From Methanofollis sp. W23 (lineage in GTDB: Archaea; Halobacteriota; Methanomicrobia; Methanomicrobiales; Methanofollaceae): a stretch of 64,000 nt of DNA. Where the stretch lies: assembly GCF_017875325.1 (NCBI RefSeq), contig NZ_JAGGMN010000001.1, positions 2,748,140 through 2,812,139 on the forward strand, read 5' to 3'. Numbering within the stretch: position 1 is the stretch's first letter; every line of letters begins with the position of its first letter. The notes under the pieces are model-generated. The model worked only from the letters and a program-made list of their open reading frames with translations. It searched no databases and was not told the DNA's origin. This document shows positions 20,275 to 30,688 of this stretch, piece after piece. The position numbers were made by a program, and so were the translations under genes.

Positions 20275-21396
20275 ATGAAACCCCGATATTTGACACGAGT
20301 TGATCAGATCAGTGCCCTGGATTTCGAAGAAAAGGTGGCCCTTCGCAGGGTCGAAGAAAGGTTTGCCTTCCGTTCAAATGAATATTATCTCTCTCTTATC
20401 GACTGGGACGATCCGATGGATCCAATCCGGCGGATTGCGGTCCCTGACCTGATGGAACTGGATGAAGAAGGAGTCCTTGACCCATCGCAGGAGAAAGATT
20501 ATACGGTGGTGAAGGGGCTCCAGCATAAATACAGGGAGACGGCCCTGCTCCTGGTCTCAGATGTATGTGGGTCGTTCTGTCGATTTTGTTTCAGAAAACG
20601 GTTGTTTATGGACCGGGGCGCGGAGGTGACAAGAGATGTGACTGAAGAACTTGCCTATATCAGAGAGCATCCTGAGGTCACAAATGTCCTCCTCACCGGG
20701 GGAGACCCGTTGATCATGGCCACGTCGAGGCTTGCACCGATCGTGCGGGCGGTGCGAGAAATCGAGCACGTGAGGATTATCAGGATCGGGTCCAAGATGC
20801 TGGCCTTCAATCCGTTCAGGGTCACGGAGGATCCGGCCCTGTGTGAGATGATCCGGAGGTATTCGACGCCTGAAAAGCGGATCTATATCATGGCCCAGTT
20901 CAATCATCCGCGGGAACTGACCCCTGAGGCGGTGAGGGCAGTTTCCCTTCTCATTGATGCCGGGGCGATCGTGGTCAACCAGACGCCTCTGGTGCGGGGG
21001 ATCAATGACGATCCCGTGGTGCTTGCCGAACTCTTCAAGAAACTTTCTTTCATCGGTGTCCCGCCGTATTATGTCTTCCAGTGTCGCCCGACGAAGGGGA
21101 ACGGAATGTTCCAGGTGCCGGTCGAGGAGACGTATGAGATCTTTGAGGAGGCGAAGGCGCAGGTCTCCGGGCTTGCAAAGCGGGCGCGGCTTGTGATGTC
21201 GCATGCGAGCGGGAAGATCGAGGTCGCGGGGTTGACCGACGAGTGTGTGTATTTCAAGTATCACCAGGCGGCCGACCCGGCGCATATCGGGAAATTCATG
21301 GCGTTCAGGCGCAATCCAGCGGCACTCTGGTTTGATGACTATACTGACCCGGTGCATGATCCTGCAGACCTGCCCGGGATGACCTGCCCGATCTGA
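20275..21396 (+). CDS. KamA-family radical SAM aminomutase, not a canonical lysine 2,3-aminomutase
   Basis: 373 residues. The radical SAM cluster motif CGSFCRFCFRKR supplies Cys98, Cys102 and Cys105; TGGDPL follows. Lys314 in SHASGK aligns with the PLP lysine. In lysine 2,3-aminomutase two aspartates (Asp293 and Asp330 in the clostridial enzyme) hold the substrate's side-chain amine. Here the first is Arg271 (FQCRPTKG) and the second a Ser or nearby residue. No ablB acetyltransferase gene follows. The substrate is therefore probably not lysine; an acidic amino acid such as glutamate is possible. Confidence 0.82.
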   Translation: MKPRYLTRVDQISALDFEEKVALRRVEERFAFRSNEYYLSLIDWDDPMDPIRRIAVPDLMELDEEGVLDPSQEKDYTVVKGLQHKYRETALLLVSDVCGSFCRFCFRKRLFMDRGAEVTRDVTEELAYIREHPEVTNVLLTGGDPLIMATSRLAPIVRAVREIEHVRIIRIGSKMLAFNPFRVTEDPALCEMIRRYSTPEKRIYIMAQFNHPRELTPEAVRAVSLLIDAGAIVVNQTPLVRGINDDPVVLAELFKKLSFIGVPPYYVFQCRPTKGNGMFQVPVEETYEIFEEAKAQVSGLAKRARLVMSHASGKIEVAGLTDECVYFKYHQAADPAHIGKFMAFRRNPAALWFDDYTDPVHDPADLPGMTCPI

Positions 21397-22585: not shown

Positions 22586-23350
22586 CTACCGGTGTCTCCG
22601 CATCCGCTGGTCGTACACCCTGATCGCTCGCATCAGGTCGATTTTCCTGAAGACCGGCCAGTATGGGGCGCAAAAGTACACCGCGCACTCGTTCCCATTT
22701 GCCATCCATGGCAAGAAGTTCGAGGTCCGCCGCTCATTTCCTGTCCTCACGATAAGGTCGACGGGAGGGAGAGGTGCCCCGTCATAGAGGTGGTGCTCGA
22801 CCGTCTTTGAGGTGATCGCATCGGCCTTCAGGTTGCCTTCCCTCACCCCTTCCACGACCCGCCTGGCGGCATGGACGATCTCGTTTCTCCCCCCATAGGC
22901 CAGTGCGATATTGAGGAAATAGCGACTGTAGTGGCGGGTGGCGTCCTCTGCAGACTCGATGAGCGAGAGGAGATCTCTGGGGAGCATTGAGCGGTCGCCT
23001 ATCATCTGCACCCTGATCTGGTTCTTGTGGATACGGTCGTCGGTGGGGATCTCTGCGAACTTCTCCTTGAAGAGATCGAAGAGATAGTCGACCTCGGCCT
23101 CGTCGCGTTTGAAGTTCTCGGTCGAGAAGGAATACAGGGTGATCGTCCTGACTCCCAGATCCTGCGCCCATTCTAAAACCCGCAGGGTGGCCTGCGCTCC
23201 TGCCCGGTGCCCTTCGATGGTGCCGACATTATTGAGACGTGCATACCGGCGGTTGCCGTCCTGGATGATCGCAATGTGGCCAGGGATATGTTTGCACTGC
23301 CATCCAAGGTAGCGTTCATAGAGGTGTTCGGCCTGGGTTCGTAGGATCAG
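22586..23350 (-). CDS. uppS: cis-Prenyltransferase (undecaprenyl/polyprenyl diphosphate synthase-like) with probable CTG start
   Basis: Makes the long polyprenyl diphosphate used as a glycosyl carrier lipid. The frame encodes IIQDGNRRYAR (catalytic Asp31), GHRAGAQ, TLYSFSTENFKR and RTGNERRTSNFLPW, so it is intact and of usual size (254 residues). No ATG, GTG or TTG occurs before residue 114. A CTG at 23350 lies 7 nt after GAGGTGA and overlaps the upstream TGA as CTGA, so CTG is the likely start. The glycosyl carrier role follows from the family. An NgBR-like partner lies at 30098-30688. Confidence 0.88.
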   Translation of the reverse strand: MILRTQAEHLYERYLGWQCKHIPGHIAIIQDGNRRYARLNNVGTIEGHRAGAQATLRVLEWAQDLGVRTITLYSFSTENFKRDEAEVDYLFDLFKEKFAEIPTDDRIHKNQIRVQMIGDRSMLPRDLLSLIESAEDATRHYSRYFLNIALAYGGRNEIVHAARRVVEGVREGNLKADAITSKTVEHHLYDGAPLPPVDLIVRTGNERRTSNFLPWMANGNECAVYFCAPYWPVFRKIDLMRAIRVYDQRMRRHR

Positions 23351-24363
23351 AGAGGCGTCACCTCGAGGATTATCCCGTTATTCGGGTACCGTTCCACCAC
23401 ATATTTGCGCCCTGACAGTCGGTCCCGCATCTCGGCAAGCACCCACCATGCCATCTCGACCAGATCTCCAGATCTCTCGATCTCATATATACTTTCCTGG
23501 AGTGCGGGAGGGAGATCACCGTCTTCCAGTTCGAGTACCCCATATATGATCGTCCCGTCCTCGGTGATCTCATCGAAGGACCTGGCGGTGTTCGCTGCGA
23601 TTCTTTTGAGCCGTTCTCGCAACTGGACCGAGTCCTTGAAGTCCGACGAACAGAAGTGAACCTTCGGGTCGTCGAGAAGAGGGGCGGCCCAGGCCACGGC
23701 CCCTCCGACGGCATTGTGAAGGCCGTCTTCAAGGTCGAGGTGTCGCTCCCGCATGGCCTGGGCATTTGTCTCGCTCCACTCGAGTTCATTGATATTGAGA
23801 AAATCAAGGGCAGGAATGATGGCGCCGAGGGCCTCGATCCCGGGGAGGGAGGGGACCTCGATCCCGATGGAAAACCCGAGTTCCCTGGCGACCTCCACTG
23901 AGGCGGCATAGGGACTGGTCAGGATCCCGGCCCATGTCTCCTGAGGGGGGTGGAGGCGGACCTCGTCGACAAGTCCACAGAGGGGTTCGAGCTGCGCCCG
24001 TGTGGGGGCGATCCCGGTGTAGAGGTGGATATGGTGTTCGGGCCCGAAATGCTCCTTGAGAAGACGACAATATGAGACGACCTCTTCGAGGACCAGGAAG
24101 GGTTCGCCGCCCGTAACCCCGGTGCCGAGTGCGCTCATCATCTCGGCCTCTGTGATGATGTCGTCAGGGCTTTTCACCAGTCGGTCGTTGGCATAGACCA
24201 CCCTGCGTCCCCGGCGCGTCTCCGAGAGCGGACAGTACCAGCAGTTCCTTGCGCAGATACCAGTCACGAAGAGGACCATCTTCGCCCCCTCGTAGCAGAG
24301 GATACATCCCTCAGAGAGATGCGATGTGCACCCGTCGATACGACCTGTCTTGTCTCCGTTCAT
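23347..24363 (-). CDS. Radical SAM protein (pyruvate formate-lyase-activating-like)
   Basis: 338 residues. The radical SAM motif CARNCWYC lies near residue 37, preceded by extra cysteines (CTSHLSEGCILC) that could bind a second metal centre. TGGEPFLVLEE matches the GGE SAM-binding motif. The family occurs in methanogens but its substrate is unknown. AAAGG lies before the ATG at 24363. It overlaps uppS by 4 bp and is probably co-transcribed with it. Confidence 0.88.
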   Translation of the reverse strand: MNGDKTGRIDGCTSHLSEGCILCYEGAKMVLFVTGICARNCWYCPLSETRRGRRVVYANDRLVKSPDDIITEAEMMSALGTGVTGGEPFLVLEEVVSYCRLLKEHFGPEHHIHLYTGIAPTRAQLEPLCGLVDEVRLHPPQETWAGILTSPYAASVEVARELGFSIGIEVPSLPGIEALGAIIPALDFLNINELEWSETNAQAMRERHLDLEDGLHNAVGGAVAWAAPLLDDPKVHFCSSDFKDSVQLRERLKRIAANTARSFDEITEDGTIIYGVLELEDGDLPPALQESIYEIERSGDLVEMAWWVLAEMRDRLSGRKYVVERYPNNGIILEVTPL

Positions 24364-24438
24364 GCGACCTTTCTACCGTATATGTACCTGCTGTCACCTT
24401 TAACCATATCCCAGCAGGCATGTACCCCTTTGAAAAGG

Positions 24439-24446
24439 ATAAATAT
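24439..24446 (+). promoter_or_regulatory. TATA box of the pilin operon
   Basis: ATAAATAT within ggataaatatcc, centred about 26 bp before the ATG at 24469. That spacing puts the transcript start at or next to the start codon, so a leaderless mRNA is likely. The same ATAAATATCC word precedes polX. Confidence 0.6.
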
Positions 24447-24468
24447 CCCATAGATGTACATCGGTACC

Positions 24469-25374
24469 ATGATCCCGAGACAGGACGAGGAGGGACTCTC
24501 TGAAGTGGTGGGGTTTGTCCTCCTCCTTGGTGTCCTCATGCTCGCACTCACCGTCTACCAGGCCTATGCCGTCCCCGCACAGGGACGCAGTGACGAGATC
24601 GTGCATATGAACGGGGTCAAGGACTTTTTTCTCGACTATAAACTCGCACTCGATTCGCTCTGGATAAACAACGCTGTTACCGTCCCTGTCTCCACCGCAC
24701 TTGACCTTGGGACCGGTCAGGCCACGGCACCGAACGGATGGCTTCCCTTCCTCTCGCCGACGGCATCTGCAGGATCCCTGAGCATCAGAGAGGGCGACGT
24801 CCTCGTCATCAAGACCAGCGACCACCCTCAAGGATGGGAGATCCCGCTCGGCGCCCTTGAATATTGTTCAGAGAACCGCTACTGGGTGGACCAGACCTGG
24901 ACCTACCAGATGGGGGGAGTCTTCCTCGCCCAGGATGGCGGGACGACGGTCAGGCTTGCTCCTCTCTTTGCTGTCTCTGACCTTGCCCGGACGAGTGCGT
25001 CGGTGAGCATCACCCCGGTGCATCTCAGAGGGTCCGGACTCGTCGGCGGCCCTGGACCGGTACGGCTCGAAACGCGGTTGCAGGAGATGCCAGGCGATCA
25101 GAGACCATATGGCGACCACGCCCCTGTAGCATGGGTGCGTCTCAGCATCAGAAGTGACGATCCGGAGCGCACGGTGGCCTGGACGCGGGTCCTGGGAGAG
25201 GCGCCCGCGCGAGAAGGGGTTCCTGAGGAGTGGTATCAGGTAACACACGACGGCAATGTCGCCTCTGTCTTCATCGACGGCCCCGACCATGGTGAGAACA
25301 AGGATGTCTCTCTCCATGTCCACAGGGCAGATTTCTATGCCTCCCTCCATGGGGCGGCGGCGAGGATCGAGTGA
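24469..25374 (+). CDS. Archaeal type IV pilin-like surface protein 1
   Basis: 301 residues. The N-terminus DEEGLSEVVGFVLLLGVL is a class III (prepilin) signal: a short charged leader, then a hydrophobic helix that is both the cleavage region and the filament core. The rest (about 270 residues) is an extracellular domain I cannot assign. The ATG at 24469 is preferred over an ATG at 24454 because of the TATA spacing. First gene of a three-gene run with overlapping or close joins. Confidence 0.8.
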   Translation: MIPRQDEEGLSEVVGFVLLLGVLMLALTVYQAYAVPAQGRSDEIVHMNGVKDFFLDYKLALDSLWINNAVTVPVSTALDLGTGQATAPNGWLPFLSPTASAGSLSIREGDVLVIKTSDHPQGWEIPLGALEYCSENRYWVDQTWTYQMGGVFLAQDGGTTVRLAPLFAVSDLARTSASVSITPVHLRGSGLVGGPGPVRLETRLQEMPGDQRPYGDHAPVAWVRLSIRSDDPERTVAWTRVLGEAPAREGVPEEWYQVTHDGNVASVFIDGPDHGENKDVSLHVHRADFYASLHGAAARIE

Positions 25375-26192
25375 TGGACATGAGGGGAGAAGAAGGGATC
25401 TCAGAGGTGGTCGCAAGCGTCCTGCTCATCGCTCTGAGTGTCGCCGGGGTGGCGGTCGTCGCCGCCCTCCTCTTCTCCACTCCTTCGGGGGCCGAAGTCC
25501 CGGCGGTCTCCCTCACTGCCGGGACCACTTCTGACGGTACCTTTGTCCTGGTCCACGAAGGCGGCGACCCTCTGGCGTCTGGCACCTACCACCTCTATGT
25601 GGACGCGGGGGACGGCCTCGTCGACAGGACCGATCGGTTCCTCCTTGAGGGGGACGGTGCCTGGTCGGTCGGGGAGGGATTGACCTATGCCGACAGAGAA
25701 CCGGGCGGCCGCGTCGTCGTCACTGTACTCATAGGAGAGGGTGAGACGGTGATCGCTGAGCCATGGGCCGAAGGAACCATCGCCACTGTCGTGGACGGGG
25801 GTGGAAGTACGCCTGGGCCTGGTCCGGGGCCAGGGCCGGGCCCAGAGCCCGGCACTCCAGGTATTGAGATCGAGACACCCTCTGACGGCGGCCATATGGT
25901 CTTCTCAGGGCACCCGAAGTATTCTTCGACCGTCAGGGCGAGAGCGACTGGTGAGGCGATCGAGGAGGTGGAGTTCGTCCTTGAATCTTCAGAAGGGGAG
26001 ATCTTCATCGAGGGGGTATACCCTGCAATACGGGGTGGGGACGGAGAGTTCTATGCTGATATCGTCAGCAACTATGGGCAACTCAAGAAGATGACGGGCA
26101 GGGAGGTCACTCTCGCGGTCGTCGCCTATGACCACACCGGTGCCCAAGTGGCCAGGGACCGCGTGACCGTACAGGTATGGCCGGCATACTGA
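25374..26192 (+). CDS. Archaeal type IV pilin-like surface protein 2
   Basis: About 272 residues. The prepilin signal EEGISEVVASVLLIALSV is at the N-terminus. A first extracellular domain (about residues 45-140) has HEGGDPLASGTYHLYVD, a segment shared in form with protein 3 (HDGGDPLEKGHFQILVD). A Pro-Gly spacer (PGPGPGPGPGPEPG) at about residue 150 joins a second beta-rich domain. The ATG overlaps the preceding TGA; a second ATG at 25380 is possible. Likely assembled by the same pilus machinery. Confidence 0.8.
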   Translation: MDMRGEEGISEVVASVLLIALSVAGVAVVAALLFSTPSGAEVPAVSLTAGTTSDGTFVLVHEGGDPLASGTYHLYVDAGDGLVDRTDRFLLEGDGAWSVGEGLTYADREPGGRVVVTVLIGEGETVIAEPWAEGTIATVVDGGGSTPGPGPGPGPGPEPGTPGIEIETPSDGGHMVFSGHPKYSSTVRARATGEAIEEVEFVLESSEGEIFIEGVYPAIRGGDGEFYADIVSNYGQLKKMTGREVTLAVVAYDHTGAQVARDRVTVQVWPAY

Positions 26193-26209
26193 CACGGGGA
26201 GGAGACGGA

Positions 26210-28210
26210 ATGGATAGGGATCATGAAGAGGCAGTCTCAGAAGAGATCGCTGCGGTCCTGCTCATTGCGGTCTTTGTCGCCGCTGCCGCAGTCTTCGGGC
26301 TCACCCTACTCTCCATTCACCCGGGCAGCGCCCCTCCAGCGACGCTCGTACACCTTGACGACGATGCCCTGGTCAACGGGCGCATCGTCCTCTGTCATGA
26401 TGGCGGCGACCCTCTGGAGAAGGGACACTTCCAGATCCTCGTCGACGGCAGAGACCTGACTGACGCATTCACCACTCTTGAGGGTTCTGGAGCGTGGACG
26501 ACCTGGACAAATGGAGAGATCCTGGTCCTTGGCCTCGAAAGCCGGCACAAACCGGCCGATATCAGGATTGTCGGCGACGGCGTGGGAGAGGACGGGAGCA
26601 GATGGCTCCTCCATACCCTCAGGGACGGCGGCGGCAGATCTCCGGGCCCGACGATCACTCCCCCCATGACGCCAACGATAGTGCCGACCCCCACCCCGAG
26701 CCCGTCGCCTCTCGTCGCACACTTCGCCGCGGACCTGACGACAGGCTCCGCACCTCTTACTGTCCAGTTCACCGACCTCTCCACAGGGTCGCCGACCTCC
26801 TGGTCCTGGGACTTTGGGGACGGGAAGGTCTCGACCAAGCAGCATCCCCTCCATACCTATACTGATCCTGGGATCTACACCGTCAACCTCACGGTCACGA
26901 ACTCCGGAGGGTCAGACATTCTCGCCAGGACTGGATATATCATGGTCTACCAGTGTGTCTCCCCTGGCATCACAGGAACCTATTACCCGACCATAGGCTT
27001 TACCGGCACATCGGTCCAGAGGGTCGACCGGAGGATCTGGTTTGCAGACCAAAAAGCCAACACGACCTCCTGGATCATGGCTGAAACCGACGAATATGAC
27101 TGGCCCCAGTCGATGATCGGGAAACAGGACCAGTTCAGTGTGATCTACGAGGGATACGTCATCGTGCCGACAGACGACACATACACGTTTTATCTGACTT
27201 CAGACGACGGATCGAAACTCTGGCTGGATGCAGTTACGGAGAGCGACGAACCTCTGATCGACAACTGGGACTATCACCAGGTACACGAAATGAGTGCGGC
27301 AGTCAATCTCCCTGCTGGGGCCCACCGGATCAGGACAATCATGTTTGAGAACAAAGGCGAGGCTGTATTCCATCTGGAATGGTCCTCTTCCACCTTTGAT
27401 CGGCGGCCAGTCGAATTCTTCTGTCAGGGCCTGTCCGGGATCGAGGCCAACTTCACCGTTGACCAGATCGTAGGAGAGGCCCCCCTCACTGTCCAGTTCA
27501 CCGACCTCTCCACAGGGTCGCCGACCTCCTGGTCCTGGGACTTTGGCGACGGAGAGACCTCGTCCTGGCAGAACCCGGCGCACACCTATAGCGCACCCGA
27601 CACCTATACCGTCATTCTCACGGCAAGGAACAGTGCCGGGGCCGACACTGCATCCAGGACCATCATGGTCACGGCACTGCCTGTAAAGGGAAAGGAGATC
27701 ACCCTGGTCACCTCCCCGCCCAAGGACGGCACACTTGAGGGGACATTTGCCTTCACCGTCACCGGTCCCTGGTCATACCTCCAGGTCGGTGAGGATTACC
27801 TCCCCCTCGTTCAGGGCGACCGGGTCGAACTCACCCTCATGGGAGACCAGAAGGGTATGCTCCATCTTGCGGAGGCTACCATCACCACCTTCGAGTTCCC
27901 TGACATTCAGGTCTCGGTCAACGATGAGGTTATTGGGGCGGGTGCAATCGGATCTGGCGGGATCTGGATCAGCGGGTACGAGAACCCGACCTCTACCCTC
28001 ACCCTCTCGGTCGAACCCGAGACTGCATGGACCTCTCTTCTCGTCAACGGCGAGATCGTCATTGAAGACTGGGGGGACGGACACGGCGTCGTCCTCTCCG
28101 CCCTGCTGCCAGACTCGACTGGAGTGATGAACCTCGACCTCACCGGGGTCGGCGAGGTTCAGAGAGCGGTCTTTTACCGGGGTGGGGCCGAGACCTACAC
28201 CCTTGTTTGA
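26210..28210 (+). CDS. Pilin-like surface adhesin with two PKD domains and a PA14 domain
   Basis: 666 residues. The prepilin N-terminus (EEAVSEEIAAVLLIAVFV) is followed by a domain like that of protein 2, a Pro/Thr linker, PKD domain 1 (about 185-250, with SWSWDFGDG), a PA14-like domain (about 255-410, with YTFYLTSDDGSKLWLD), PKD domain 2 (about 415-490) and a beta-rich C-terminus. PA14 and PKD modules bind sugars or mediate adhesion in other proteins. GGAGGAGACGGA precedes the ATG at 26210. Probably a large adhesin at a pilus tip or surface. Confidence 0.82.
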   Translation: MDRDHEEAVSEEIAAVLLIAVFVAAAAVFGLTLLSIHPGSAPPATLVHLDDDALVNGRIVLCHDGGDPLEKGHFQILVDGRDLTDAFTTLEGSGAWTTWTNGEILVLGLESRHKPADIRIVGDGVGEDGSRWLLHTLRDGGGRSPGPTITPPMTPTIVPTPTPSPSPLVAHFAADLTTGSAPLTVQFTDLSTGSPTSWSWDFGDGKVSTKQHPLHTYTDPGIYTVNLTVTNSGGSDILARTGYIMVYQCVSPGITGTYYPTIGFTGTSVQRVDRRIWFADQKANTTSWIMAETDEYDWPQSMIGKQDQFSVIYEGYVIVPTDDTYTFYLTSDDGSKLWLDAVTESDEPLIDNWDYHQVHEMSAAVNLPAGAHRIRTIMFENKGEAVFHLEWSSSTFDRRPVEFFCQGLSGIEANFTVDQIVGEAPLTVQFTDLSTGSPTSWSWDFGDGETSSWQNPAHTYSAPDTYTVILTARNSAGADTASRTIMVTALPVKGKEITLVTSPPKDGTLEGTFAFTVTGPWSYLQVGEDYLPLVQGDRVELTLMGDQKGMLHLAEATITTFEFPDIQVSVNDEVIGAGAIGSGGIWISGYENPTSTLTLSVEPETAWTSLLVNGEIVIEDWGDGHGVVLSALLPDSTGVMNLDLTGVGEVQRAVFYRGGAETYTLV

Positions 28211-28380
28211 GGACGCGGGGGGCATGGGTCCATGCCCTCCTGGGAAGGCGATTTGGTGATCCAGATGCATGATGTGTCTTCTTCTCATCTCTCTTGCCGC
28301 GGGCGAGTGCCACCCGATCGCCGGGATGACGATCTGCCCGGCACGGTCTATACCTGGTTTTTTCGAGGGCGCCGCACTGC
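28211..28380. other. Spacer after the pilin operon
   Basis: No gene seen. A perfect short inverted repeat, GGGCATGG-GT-CCATGCCC at about 28219-28236, lies just after the adhesin stop. It may act in termination or mRNA stability, although no T-run follows. The polX frame extends upstream through this spacer but has no coding character here. Confidence 0.4.
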
Positions 28381-28388
28381 ATAAATAT
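28381..28388 (+). promoter_or_regulatory. TATA box of polX
   Basis: ATAAATAT in gcataaatatcc, centred about 25 bp before the ATG at 28410, implying a leaderless transcript. Nearly identical to the pilin-operon box. Confidence 0.6.
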
Positions 28389-28409
28389 CCAGCATACGAC
28401 TCCCCATAC

Positions 28410-30101
28410 ATGGACGTGACCAATCAGGTGGTCGCGGGGGTGCTCGCCGAGATCGGCGATCTCCTTGAGGTCCACGGTGAGAACCCCTTCAAGGTGCGGG
28501 CCTATGCCAGGGCCGCGGAGACGGTGAGGCACCTCGGCCGACCGGTCGCAGGGATGGACGACGACGACTTTGAGGCGCTTCCCGGGATAGGGAAGGTGAT
28601 TGCAGGGAATATCGCGGAGATCGTCGAGACCGGCACCTGCCAGGAACAGGTACGTCTCCGCGAGGCGACGCCGCCTGGGCTTCCCGCCCTCCTGAATCTC
28701 CGGGGCGTCGGCCCAAAGACTGTCCACAGGTTCTGGAAAGAACTTGGGGTGACAGGGATCGACGACCTCGAAACCGCCGCCAGGGCACACCGGATCAGGG
28801 GGCTCAGGGGGTTTGGGGAGAAGAAGGAGGACGAGATCCTCAGGGCGGTCGCTGCCGCCAGAAAGGTGTCCACGCGGATGAGCATGACCGAGGCCGAACG
28901 CCTGGCAGAGCGGGTGCTCTTGGTCATACCTGGGGAGGCATGGGTGGCCGGGAGCCTGCGGCGCGGGCGGTCCACCATCGGGGACATTGACGTCGTCACC
29001 CTTGCTCCGGCCGCCGAGACCGCACTGGCCCTCGAGGGGATCGCCGACGAGGTGATCGACGCCGGAGAGAAGAAGATCTCGGTCAGGATCGATGAGATAC
29101 GGATCGATGTCAGGTTTTCGACATCTGGAGACCTCGGGGCGATGCTCCTGTACCTCACCGGTTCGAAGGGCTTCAATATCAGACTCAGGGAAGTTGCCAG
29201 GTCAGGGGGCATGCGCCTCAACGAGTACGGCCTGACCGACCAGACGACCGGGGAACTCAGGAGTTTTGGGACCGAAGACGAGGTTTTTACCGCCCTCGGT
29301 ATGGTCCTGGTCCCCCCTGAACTGCGTGAAGACCGCGGCGAGGTGGACCTGGCCCTTGCCGGGCATCTCCCCCGAGTCGTGGAGGCGCAGGAGATCAGGG
29401 GCGACCTCCATCTCCATTCAGAGTGGAGCGATGGTTCGATGAGTCTGGACGAGATCGCACTGGTCGGGGAGTCGAGGGGCTATGAATATATTCTGGTCAG
29501 CGACCACTCTGCGAGCCTTGGGATCGCCCATGGTCTTGACGCCGACAGACTCGCATGTCAGCACCAGGCGATCAGGGAAGTGAACCGCACCTTGGGATCA
29601 GGATGCACCCTCCTTGCTGGCGTCGAGGTGGACATCCTCGCCGACGGGAGACTTGCTCTCCCTGACAGGGTGCTGCAGGACTGCGACCTGGTCGTTGCTT
29701 CAGTTCACTCTGGCTTCGGCCAGGCGGAGGACGTGATGACCCGACGGGTGATCACGGCGATCGAGAAAGAGCATGTCGATATCATCGGCCATCCGACGGG
29801 GCGGGTCATCAGCCGACGCCCACCGGTCGCCCTTGATATGGGGCGGGTCATTGGTGCCGCGGCAGAGAATGGAAAGGCTCTGGAAATCAACGCTTCCCCT
29901 GGTCGCTTCGATCTGGATGATATTTATATCAAGCAGGCCCAAGAGAGGGGCGTGAAACTTGCAATCGGGACTGATGCCCACGCCCCCTCTGATCTCGACC
30001 ATATAAGGCACGGGGTCACCCTCGCGCGCCGGGGATGGTGTGGGGCGGGTGACATCCTCAATACCATGTCTCTTGTGGACCTGATGGAGTGGCGCGGATG
30101 A
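28410..30101 (+). CDS. polX: DNA polymerase/3'-5' exonuclease PolX
   Basis: A family X DNA polymerase for repair gap filling. 563 residues fit the PolX plus PHP layout. The N-terminal 8-kDa region has helix-hairpin-helix pieces (LPGIGKVIAGNIAEI and LRGVGPKTVHRFWKE). The polymerase core has SLRRGRSTIGDIDVV with the DxD metal pair and RIDVR with the third Asp. The C-terminal PHP domain has DLHLHSEWSDGSMSLDE and HPTGRVI. The ATG at 28410 fits both the family N-terminus and the TATA spacing. Confidence 0.95.
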   Translation: MDVTNQVVAGVLAEIGDLLEVHGENPFKVRAYARAAETVRHLGRPVAGMDDDDFEALPGIGKVIAGNIAEIVETGTCQEQVRLREATPPGLPALLNLRGVGPKTVHRFWKELGVTGIDDLETAARAHRIRGLRGFGEKKEDEILRAVAAARKVSTRMSMTEAERLAERVLLVIPGEAWVAGSLRRGRSTIGDIDVVTLAPAAETALALEGIADEVIDAGEKKISVRIDEIRIDVRFSTSGDLGAMLLYLTGSKGFNIRLREVARSGGMRLNEYGLTDQTTGELRSFGTEDEVFTALGMVLVPPELREDRGEVDLALAGHLPRVVEAQEIRGDLHLHSEWSDGSMSLDEIALVGESRGYEYILVSDHSASLGIAHGLDADRLACQHQAIREVNRTLGSGCTLLAGVEVDILADGRLALPDRVLQDCDLVVASVHSGFGQAEDVMTRRVITAIEKEHVDIIGHPTGRVISRRPPVALDMGRVIGAAAENGKALEINASPGRFDLDDIYIKQAQERGVKLAIGTDAHAPSDLDHIRHGVTLARRGWCGAGDILNTMSLVDLMEWRG

Positions 30102-30688
30102 TCCGGTGGTTCTACGAACGCCTCCTTCTCAGGGATCTTAACAGGCCCCCTGAGCAGATCTGCTTTATGATCACCGGAGAGGACATGCTCGAAGCGCCAG
30201 AAAAGATCATTGAGGCGACCGGGTGGTGCCGGGAGGTGGGGATCCAGGGGACGACCTTCCACATCTCCACCGACCAACCTGAACAGATCAGAGGGTGTCT
30301 CCCGACGATCCGGAGGATCGGAGAGATCGCCAGACTCACTCTCCACTATGCAGACACCGTCGAGACCATCGGCGAGGGGATGGAGGTGACCGTCGCCGTC
30401 GGGATGAGCGGGCGCGAGGAGATCACCGCATGTATCAGAGAGATCGCCAGGGAAGGGGCAGCGCCTGATGAGATCAATGAGGAGATGATCGAACGCCACC
30501 TCACCTTCACCTGCATGCCAGACCTGGTGATCAAGACTGGCGGCAATTATCTCACCGACTTTCTCATCTGGCAGTCAGTCTATTCCGAGCTCTTCTTCCT
30601 TGACGTGAACTGGAAGTGGTTCAGAAAAGTGGACTTTCTCAGGGCGATCAGGGACTATCAGTCCAGGGCCCGCCGGTTCGGGACCTGA
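30098..30688 (+). CDS. Degenerate cis-prenyltransferase subunit (NgBR/Nus1-like)
   Basis: 196 residues of cis-prenyltransferase fold. The catalytic DGNxR loop is replaced by ITGEDML, so it should not be active alone. The C-terminal half is well kept: KTGGNYLTDFLIWQ, YSELFFLDVNW and YQSRARRFG. This is the pattern of the non-catalytic NgBR/Nus1 partner. A heteromeric cis-prenyltransferase has been reported from Methanosarcina mazei. The likely partner is the product of 22586-23350. The ATG at 30098 overlaps the polX stop and has GGAGTGG upstream. Confidence 0.75.
   Translation: MIRWFYERLLLRDLNRPPEQICFMITGEDMLEAPEKIIEATGWCREVGIQGTTFHISTDQPEQIRGCLPTIRRIGEIARLTLHYADTVETIGEGMEVTVAVGMSGREEITACIREIAREGAAPDEINEEMIERHLTFTCMPDLVIKTGGNYLTDFLIWQSVYSELFFLDVNWKWFRKVDFLRAIRDYQSRARRFGT

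Follow-up and report, generated by a model that had tools for sequence, protein, structure and literature searches.

The window analysed here, a stretch of 64,000 nucleotides from Methanofollis sp. W23, encodes two proteins of the cis-prenyltransferase family (PF01255), one of which keeps the catalytic DGNRR motif and the other of which does not. Are these two separate proteins that happen to share an ancestry, or are they two parts of one enzyme? Here, we propose, with a probability of about 0.9, that the two proteins (A and B below) are the subunits of a single heteromeric cis-prenyltransferase, whose product, a dolichol-type polyprenyl diphosphate, would serve as the lipid carrier in glycosylation. 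This is based on complementary motifs, on co-occurrence, on the tail-to-tail arrangement of the genes in relatives, and on a probable counterpart pair in Methanosarcina mazei. The initial annotation had claimed that the window holds both halves of such an enzyme, and all the points of that claim that can be tested by sequence fit. The kind of enzyme is already known, and the window pair is a further example of it. The features on which the argument draws are as follows.

22586 to 23350, minus strand: A, the putative catalytic cis-prenyltransferase subunit, 254 amino acids from a CTG start (PF01255, TIGR00055).
23348 to 23350, minus strand: codon CTG at which A starts, in a CTGA that also contains the TGA stop of the preceding radical SAM gene.
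23246 to 23260, minus strand: DGNRR catalytic motif of A (Asp31), kept in 90 of 90 A proteins.
23347 to 24363, minus strand: uncharacterised radical SAM gene (PF04055) directly upstream of A, with a 4-base overlap.
24454 to 28210, plus strand: pilin-like and PKD/PA14 genes, which here separate A from B (Pilin_N, PKD, PA14).
28269 to 30101, plus strand: gene for a DNA polymerase/PHP protein of the PolX type, immediately preceding B (NF006375, 476 bits against a cut-off of 426).
30098 to 30688, plus strand: B, the putative non-catalytic partner subunit, 196 amino acids, with an ATG start that shares bases with the PolX stop codon.
30674 to 30682, plus strand: the RxG motif of B (R-F-G), followed by a single final residue, read from the sequence and the tails of relatives.

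A is a full-length member of the family, matching PF01255 with 238 bits over profile positions 1-218 of 219 and the uppS equivalog TIGR00055 with 237 bits, above the curated cut-off of 109.55. Among solved structures, bacterial UppS (E 5.6e-46) and human DHDDS (E 1e-45) match it nearly equally well. Its reading frame is open from 23374 and has no ATG, GTG or TTG ahead of the DGNRR motif, which is why the list of open reading frames gives only a 141-residue fragment of the protein. The initial annotation had placed a DGNRR motif with Asp31 in the protein at 22586-23350, and this is borne out when counting starts from the CTG at 23350, where the aspartate becomes residue 31. A GAGGTGA lies seven bases 5' of this codon and is, as judged from the sequence, a strong candidate for a ribosome-binding site. 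The CTG is found at the same position in all 10 members of the genus that were read: six of them have no in-frame ATG, GTG or TTG upstream of DGNRR, and in the other four a GTG lies 62 codons ahead of the motif, with an ATG just before it as well in one of these. Gene callers limited to ATG, GTG and TTG would thus truncate or miss A. Outside the genus, members of the order frequently start here with ATG, GTG or TTG instead.

The second protein retains only part of the family's sequence. Its PF01255 match (95.7 bits) is confined to profile positions 111-219, the C-terminal half, and its TIGR00055 score (81.8 bits) falls under the cut-off given above. Translation agrees with the earlier statement that the protein at 30098-30688 is without the catalytic motif, reading ITGEDML (residues 25-31), and has KTGGN (146-150) and RARRFG (190-195) segments. 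The likening of these segments to eukaryotic NgBR/Nus1 stands in part: B ends in R-F-G plus one residue as does human NgBR, whose tail reads RLGK at the extreme end of the chain, but KTGGN is no NgBR signature, human NgBR having KFGPV there, and yeast Nus1 is described as lacking a canonical RxG (PMC7573591). The KTGGN stretch is instead what is left in B of the R-T-x-G-E motif that the family has. When 40 B proteins are combined into a profile, its best match is bacterial UppS (E 4e-34), and it also matches human NUS1/NgBR over nearly the whole domain (E 2e-12, positions 17-203) and yeast Nus1 (E 1.5e-4). By eye, no membrane anchor was seen at the N-terminus of B, which has a short helix with charged residues and no membrane-spanning stretch. 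The chain has some 19 residues ahead of its first strand in a structure model that is poor (mean pLDDT 57.6), was built from the two window proteins only, and gave no Foldseek match at E 0.001; the model and the fold search were otherwise treated as uninformative. A scan of viral contigs for relatives found none.

The genome has exactly two PF01255 proteins, the complete A and the C-terminal-only B, with no third; because the same pattern recurs in relatives, the pairing is not a matter of chance. The motifs of the two types were compared in 90 A proteins from 89 genomes and 87 B proteins from 87 genomes. In all 90 A proteins the residues D, G, N, R, R, S, N, F and R, plus a later R, R and S, are invariant. 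When A is aligned to human DHDDS (residue numbers as given in PMC7573591), the counterparts of N82, R85, R205, R211 and S213 are likewise invariant, and that of E81 is kept in 89 of 90. What A lacks is the RxG: none of the 90 proteins has it at the matching place in the tail (R at +3, G at +5), the tails being variable, with five carrying an RxG displaced from that place. The B proteins present the complementary picture. DGNRR occurs in none of the 87 (one has a chance DGN), and the chain ends in RxG plus exactly one residue in 86, as it does in three of three further B proteins. The sole exception (G113) has K for the R of RxG and reads RKFGK; W, Q, Y, E and the RxG glycine are invariant in all 87. 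In bacterial UppS, a homodimeric enzyme of the same family, all motifs sit in one chain: a small control of 12 bacterial genomes, 11 with a match and one of them also with two 35-residue fragments, gave DGN and RxG together in 12 of 12 full-length proteins. The glutamate of W-Q-x-x-Y-x-E was also considered as a residue divided between the subunits, and this was rejected, as it is present in 77 of the 90 A proteins.

How might the two chains work together? Partner subunits of heteromeric enzymes are described as related to the family mainly in the C-terminal half and as being without the catalytic motif (PMC7839719). In the human complex, the NgBR tail crosses the dimer interface, where DHDDS N82 and R85 are touched by the carbonyl of its glycine, and R37 and again R85 by the carboxylate at its C-terminus (PMC7573591); the A residues matching N82 and R85, along with the arginines of DGNRR, are kept in 90 of 90 proteins. 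In the window pair, A would give the active site, with Asp31 of DGNRR, the E-N-F-x-R segment, and R-T-x-N-E-R-R-T-S, and these segments would bind both substrates, isopentenyl diphosphate and the allylic starter. B, its own active site lost, would send its tail (R193-F194-G195-T196) across the dimer interface and so complete the substrate-binding site of A, as NgBR does for DHDDS. We infer from these likenesses that the two proteins assemble physically and that both are needed. As window A ends at the domain, with no C-terminal extension like the tetramerisation region of DHDDS, our guess is that a simple heterodimer is the likelier assembly. The genome also has an STT3-type oligosaccharyltransferase, which needs a polyprenyl carrier, and the A/B pair is the only PF01255 source of one, so that the product would presumably be used in N-glycosylation.

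A heteromeric cis-prenyltransferase of Methanosarcina mazei, made up of MM_0618 and MM_1083, was reportedly described by Emi et al. in 2019. The initial annotation had cited such an enzyme as precedent, and it is so stated in PMC8131916, which gives C45-50 products for the MM_0618 and MM_1083 pair; the chain length made by the window pair may be similar. The same source describes a further M. mazei paralogue, MM_0014, which is without RxG, has a TLGG tail, and crystallises as an active homodimer (PMC8131916). The MM_0014 sequence is found at 100% identity in one genome of our set (G306), which is thus almost certainly M. mazei and which has two further matches: an A, 51% identical to window A over 231 amino acids, and a B, 34% identical over 214 amino acids and ending RRYGK. 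The M. mazei pair would therefore consist of the same two protein types as the window, one of each, and gene spacing suggests that MM_0618 is the A protein. The two species differ in that M. mazei has the third paralogue, which the window genome lacks, and in that the M. mazei A protein has a C-terminal tail, which window A lacks. Enzymes of the MM_0014 type belong to the same family and are missing the RxG as A is, but they have the TLGG tail and form a separate branch. Scattered third cis-prenyltransferases of this type, with a T-L-G-G tail, occur in a few relatives, at loci L043 (G008) and L094 (G113).

The pair extends well beyond these two species. In the order, two PF01255 matches per genome were found in 97 of 100 genomes and three, one and none in one genome each, giving at least two in 98 of 100, the second matches having been read as sequence among the matches listed; a phylum sample had at least two in 60 of 60. 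The B profile matches 194 of 196 genomes. In 11 of the 194 the best E is above 1e-50, where A could be the scorer, and B was confirmed by sequence in four of these 11 (G101, G106, G131 and G143), which leaves about 187 of 196 genomes with a secure B. PF01255 matches are missing altogether from the two genomes that the B profile does not match (G183 and G185), both of one genus and with a completeness of about 91%. Judged by these motif and profile patterns, a heteromeric pair known from one methanogen appears to be common across its archaeal phylum. Distant euryarchaeal paralogues have been noted in a tree of the family, apparently with no function attached to them (PMC5088576), and no phylum-wide survey of heteromeric enzymes was found in the literature searched, most subscription journals and the key paper lying outside it.

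The position of the two genes had been described as about 7 kb apart and in different operons, and this is true of the window, where the nearer ends are 6.7 kb apart, but it is a secondary, lineage-specific rearrangement. Of 49 loci with both genes (counted because the two fell in one retrieved stretch), 48 have A and B tail to tail, with 3' ends ranging from a 31-base overlap to 8 kb apart and lying within 100 bases of each other in 35 of the tail-to-tail loci. In the fullest arrangement among 19 order loci compared, pilin genes are followed by the radical SAM gene and A on one strand, by B and PolX on the other, and then by DtxR-FeoA and FeoB on the first strand. One relative (G026, locus L035) has B-PolX inverted, an intermediate arrangement, and the window has pilin-radical SAM-A inverted in addition; two successive inversions would thus have placed A and B 6.7 kb apart. 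The pilin genes of the window now lie between the pair and in order relatives lie outside it; one gene of the 24454-28210 cluster is fused to PKD and PA14 domains. Beyond the order, A and B are usually apart, being within 10 kb of each other in 10 of the 47 non-order genomes of the phylum sample.

Other neighbours are kept to differing degrees. PolX adjoins B in 10 of the 19 order loci compared. Where the flanks permit a comparison, the radical SAM gene adjoins A in all 42 order genomes and in 22 of 48 others; across the phylum sample it has a match in 54 of 60 genomes (one marginal), and 38 of the 60 have it less than 1 kb from A and on A's strand. It may serve an unknown step of carrier-lipid synthesis.

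Could A act without B? One option is that A works alone as a homodimer, as MM_0014 does, and that B is a separate pseudo-enzyme with some other role. A missing RxG is by itself no proof that a partner is needed, given that MM_0014 is active as a homodimer without one (PMC8131916) and that DHDDS alone is weakly active (PMC7573591), and with A and B on opposite strands in the window and tail to tail in relatives there is no shared operon to tie them. We nevertheless consider this option very unlikely: the MM_0014 type has TLGG in place of RxG whereas the tails of A are variable, B has exactly the motif that A is missing, placed right at the end of the chain in 86 of 87 proteins, and the M. mazei proteins that are probably orthologous are described as forming a heteromeric enzyme (PMC8131916).

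A milder form of this argument would have A alone making short chains and A with B making long ones, B setting the chain length and not being required. The weak activity of DHDDS alone and the roughly 400-fold faster complex (PMC7573591) are in keeping with it, and the lack of a third homologue in the genome means that one pair has to serve all needs. That not one of the 90 A proteins has RxG at the matching place speaks for B being truly needed, although it does not separate this reading sharply from the best explanation, and we regard a dispensable B as unlikely. That B is a decaying duplicate without function, as the loss of its catalytic motifs might suggest, is hardly credible, being contradicted by the B-profile match in 194 of 196 genomes and by the W, Q, Y, E and RxG glycine kept in 87 of 87 proteins. 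A heteromeric enzyme of A and B is the reading that we prefer, and the counterpoints to it are the five A tails with a shifted RxG, a linkage of A and B that is not universal, and the one B protein with K in its RxG.

The architecture of the proposed enzyme is also that of human DHDDS/NgBR, which combines a catalytic subunit without RxG and a non-catalytic one ending in R-x-G plus one residue. The two systems differ in that NgBR/Nus1 has an N-terminal membrane anchor, which B lacks, and DHDDS a C-terminal tetramerisation region, which window A lacks. Their relationship was examined in trees of 30 of the 89 A-bearing genomes (one A per genome) and 30 of the 87 B proteins. In the first tree, NgBR is placed on the B side (95/100), and DHDDS is the neighbour of A (83/71). 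In a second tree, for which one long row (B_G106) was dropped before building, NgBR joins the MM_0014-like proteins instead, an unstable placement. The grouping of A with DHDDS has support of 83/71 and 93/77 in the two trees, not starred; neither a single clade of NgBR and DHDDS (p-AU 0.229) nor a grouping of the bacterial proteins with DHDDS (p-AU 0.481) is rejected. A scan with yeast actin aimed at Asgard archaea gave 23 loci, all in bacterial-titled records and several of them probably eukaryotic contamination. It is possible, if somewhat doubtful, that the split between a catalytic and an RxG-donating subunit is ancestral, a standard phylum-wide route to the glycan carrier lipid that predates eukaryotes, and that DHDDS/NgBR descends from such an archaeal pair.

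Our findings extend the two-subunit enzyme of one methanogen to a pattern across a phylum. The archaeal A/B pattern also makes the origin of NgBR, by one split or two, a testable matter. In addition, anchor-free B partners would be good structural material for the study of a tail that completes an active site, R290 being a disease position in the human protein.

One further protein of the window, encoded at 20275-21396 on the plus strand and falling under the cut-offs of lysine and glutamate 2,3-aminomutase, belongs to the KamA family of radical SAM proteins (TIGR00238, 215.7 against a cut-off of 199.2).
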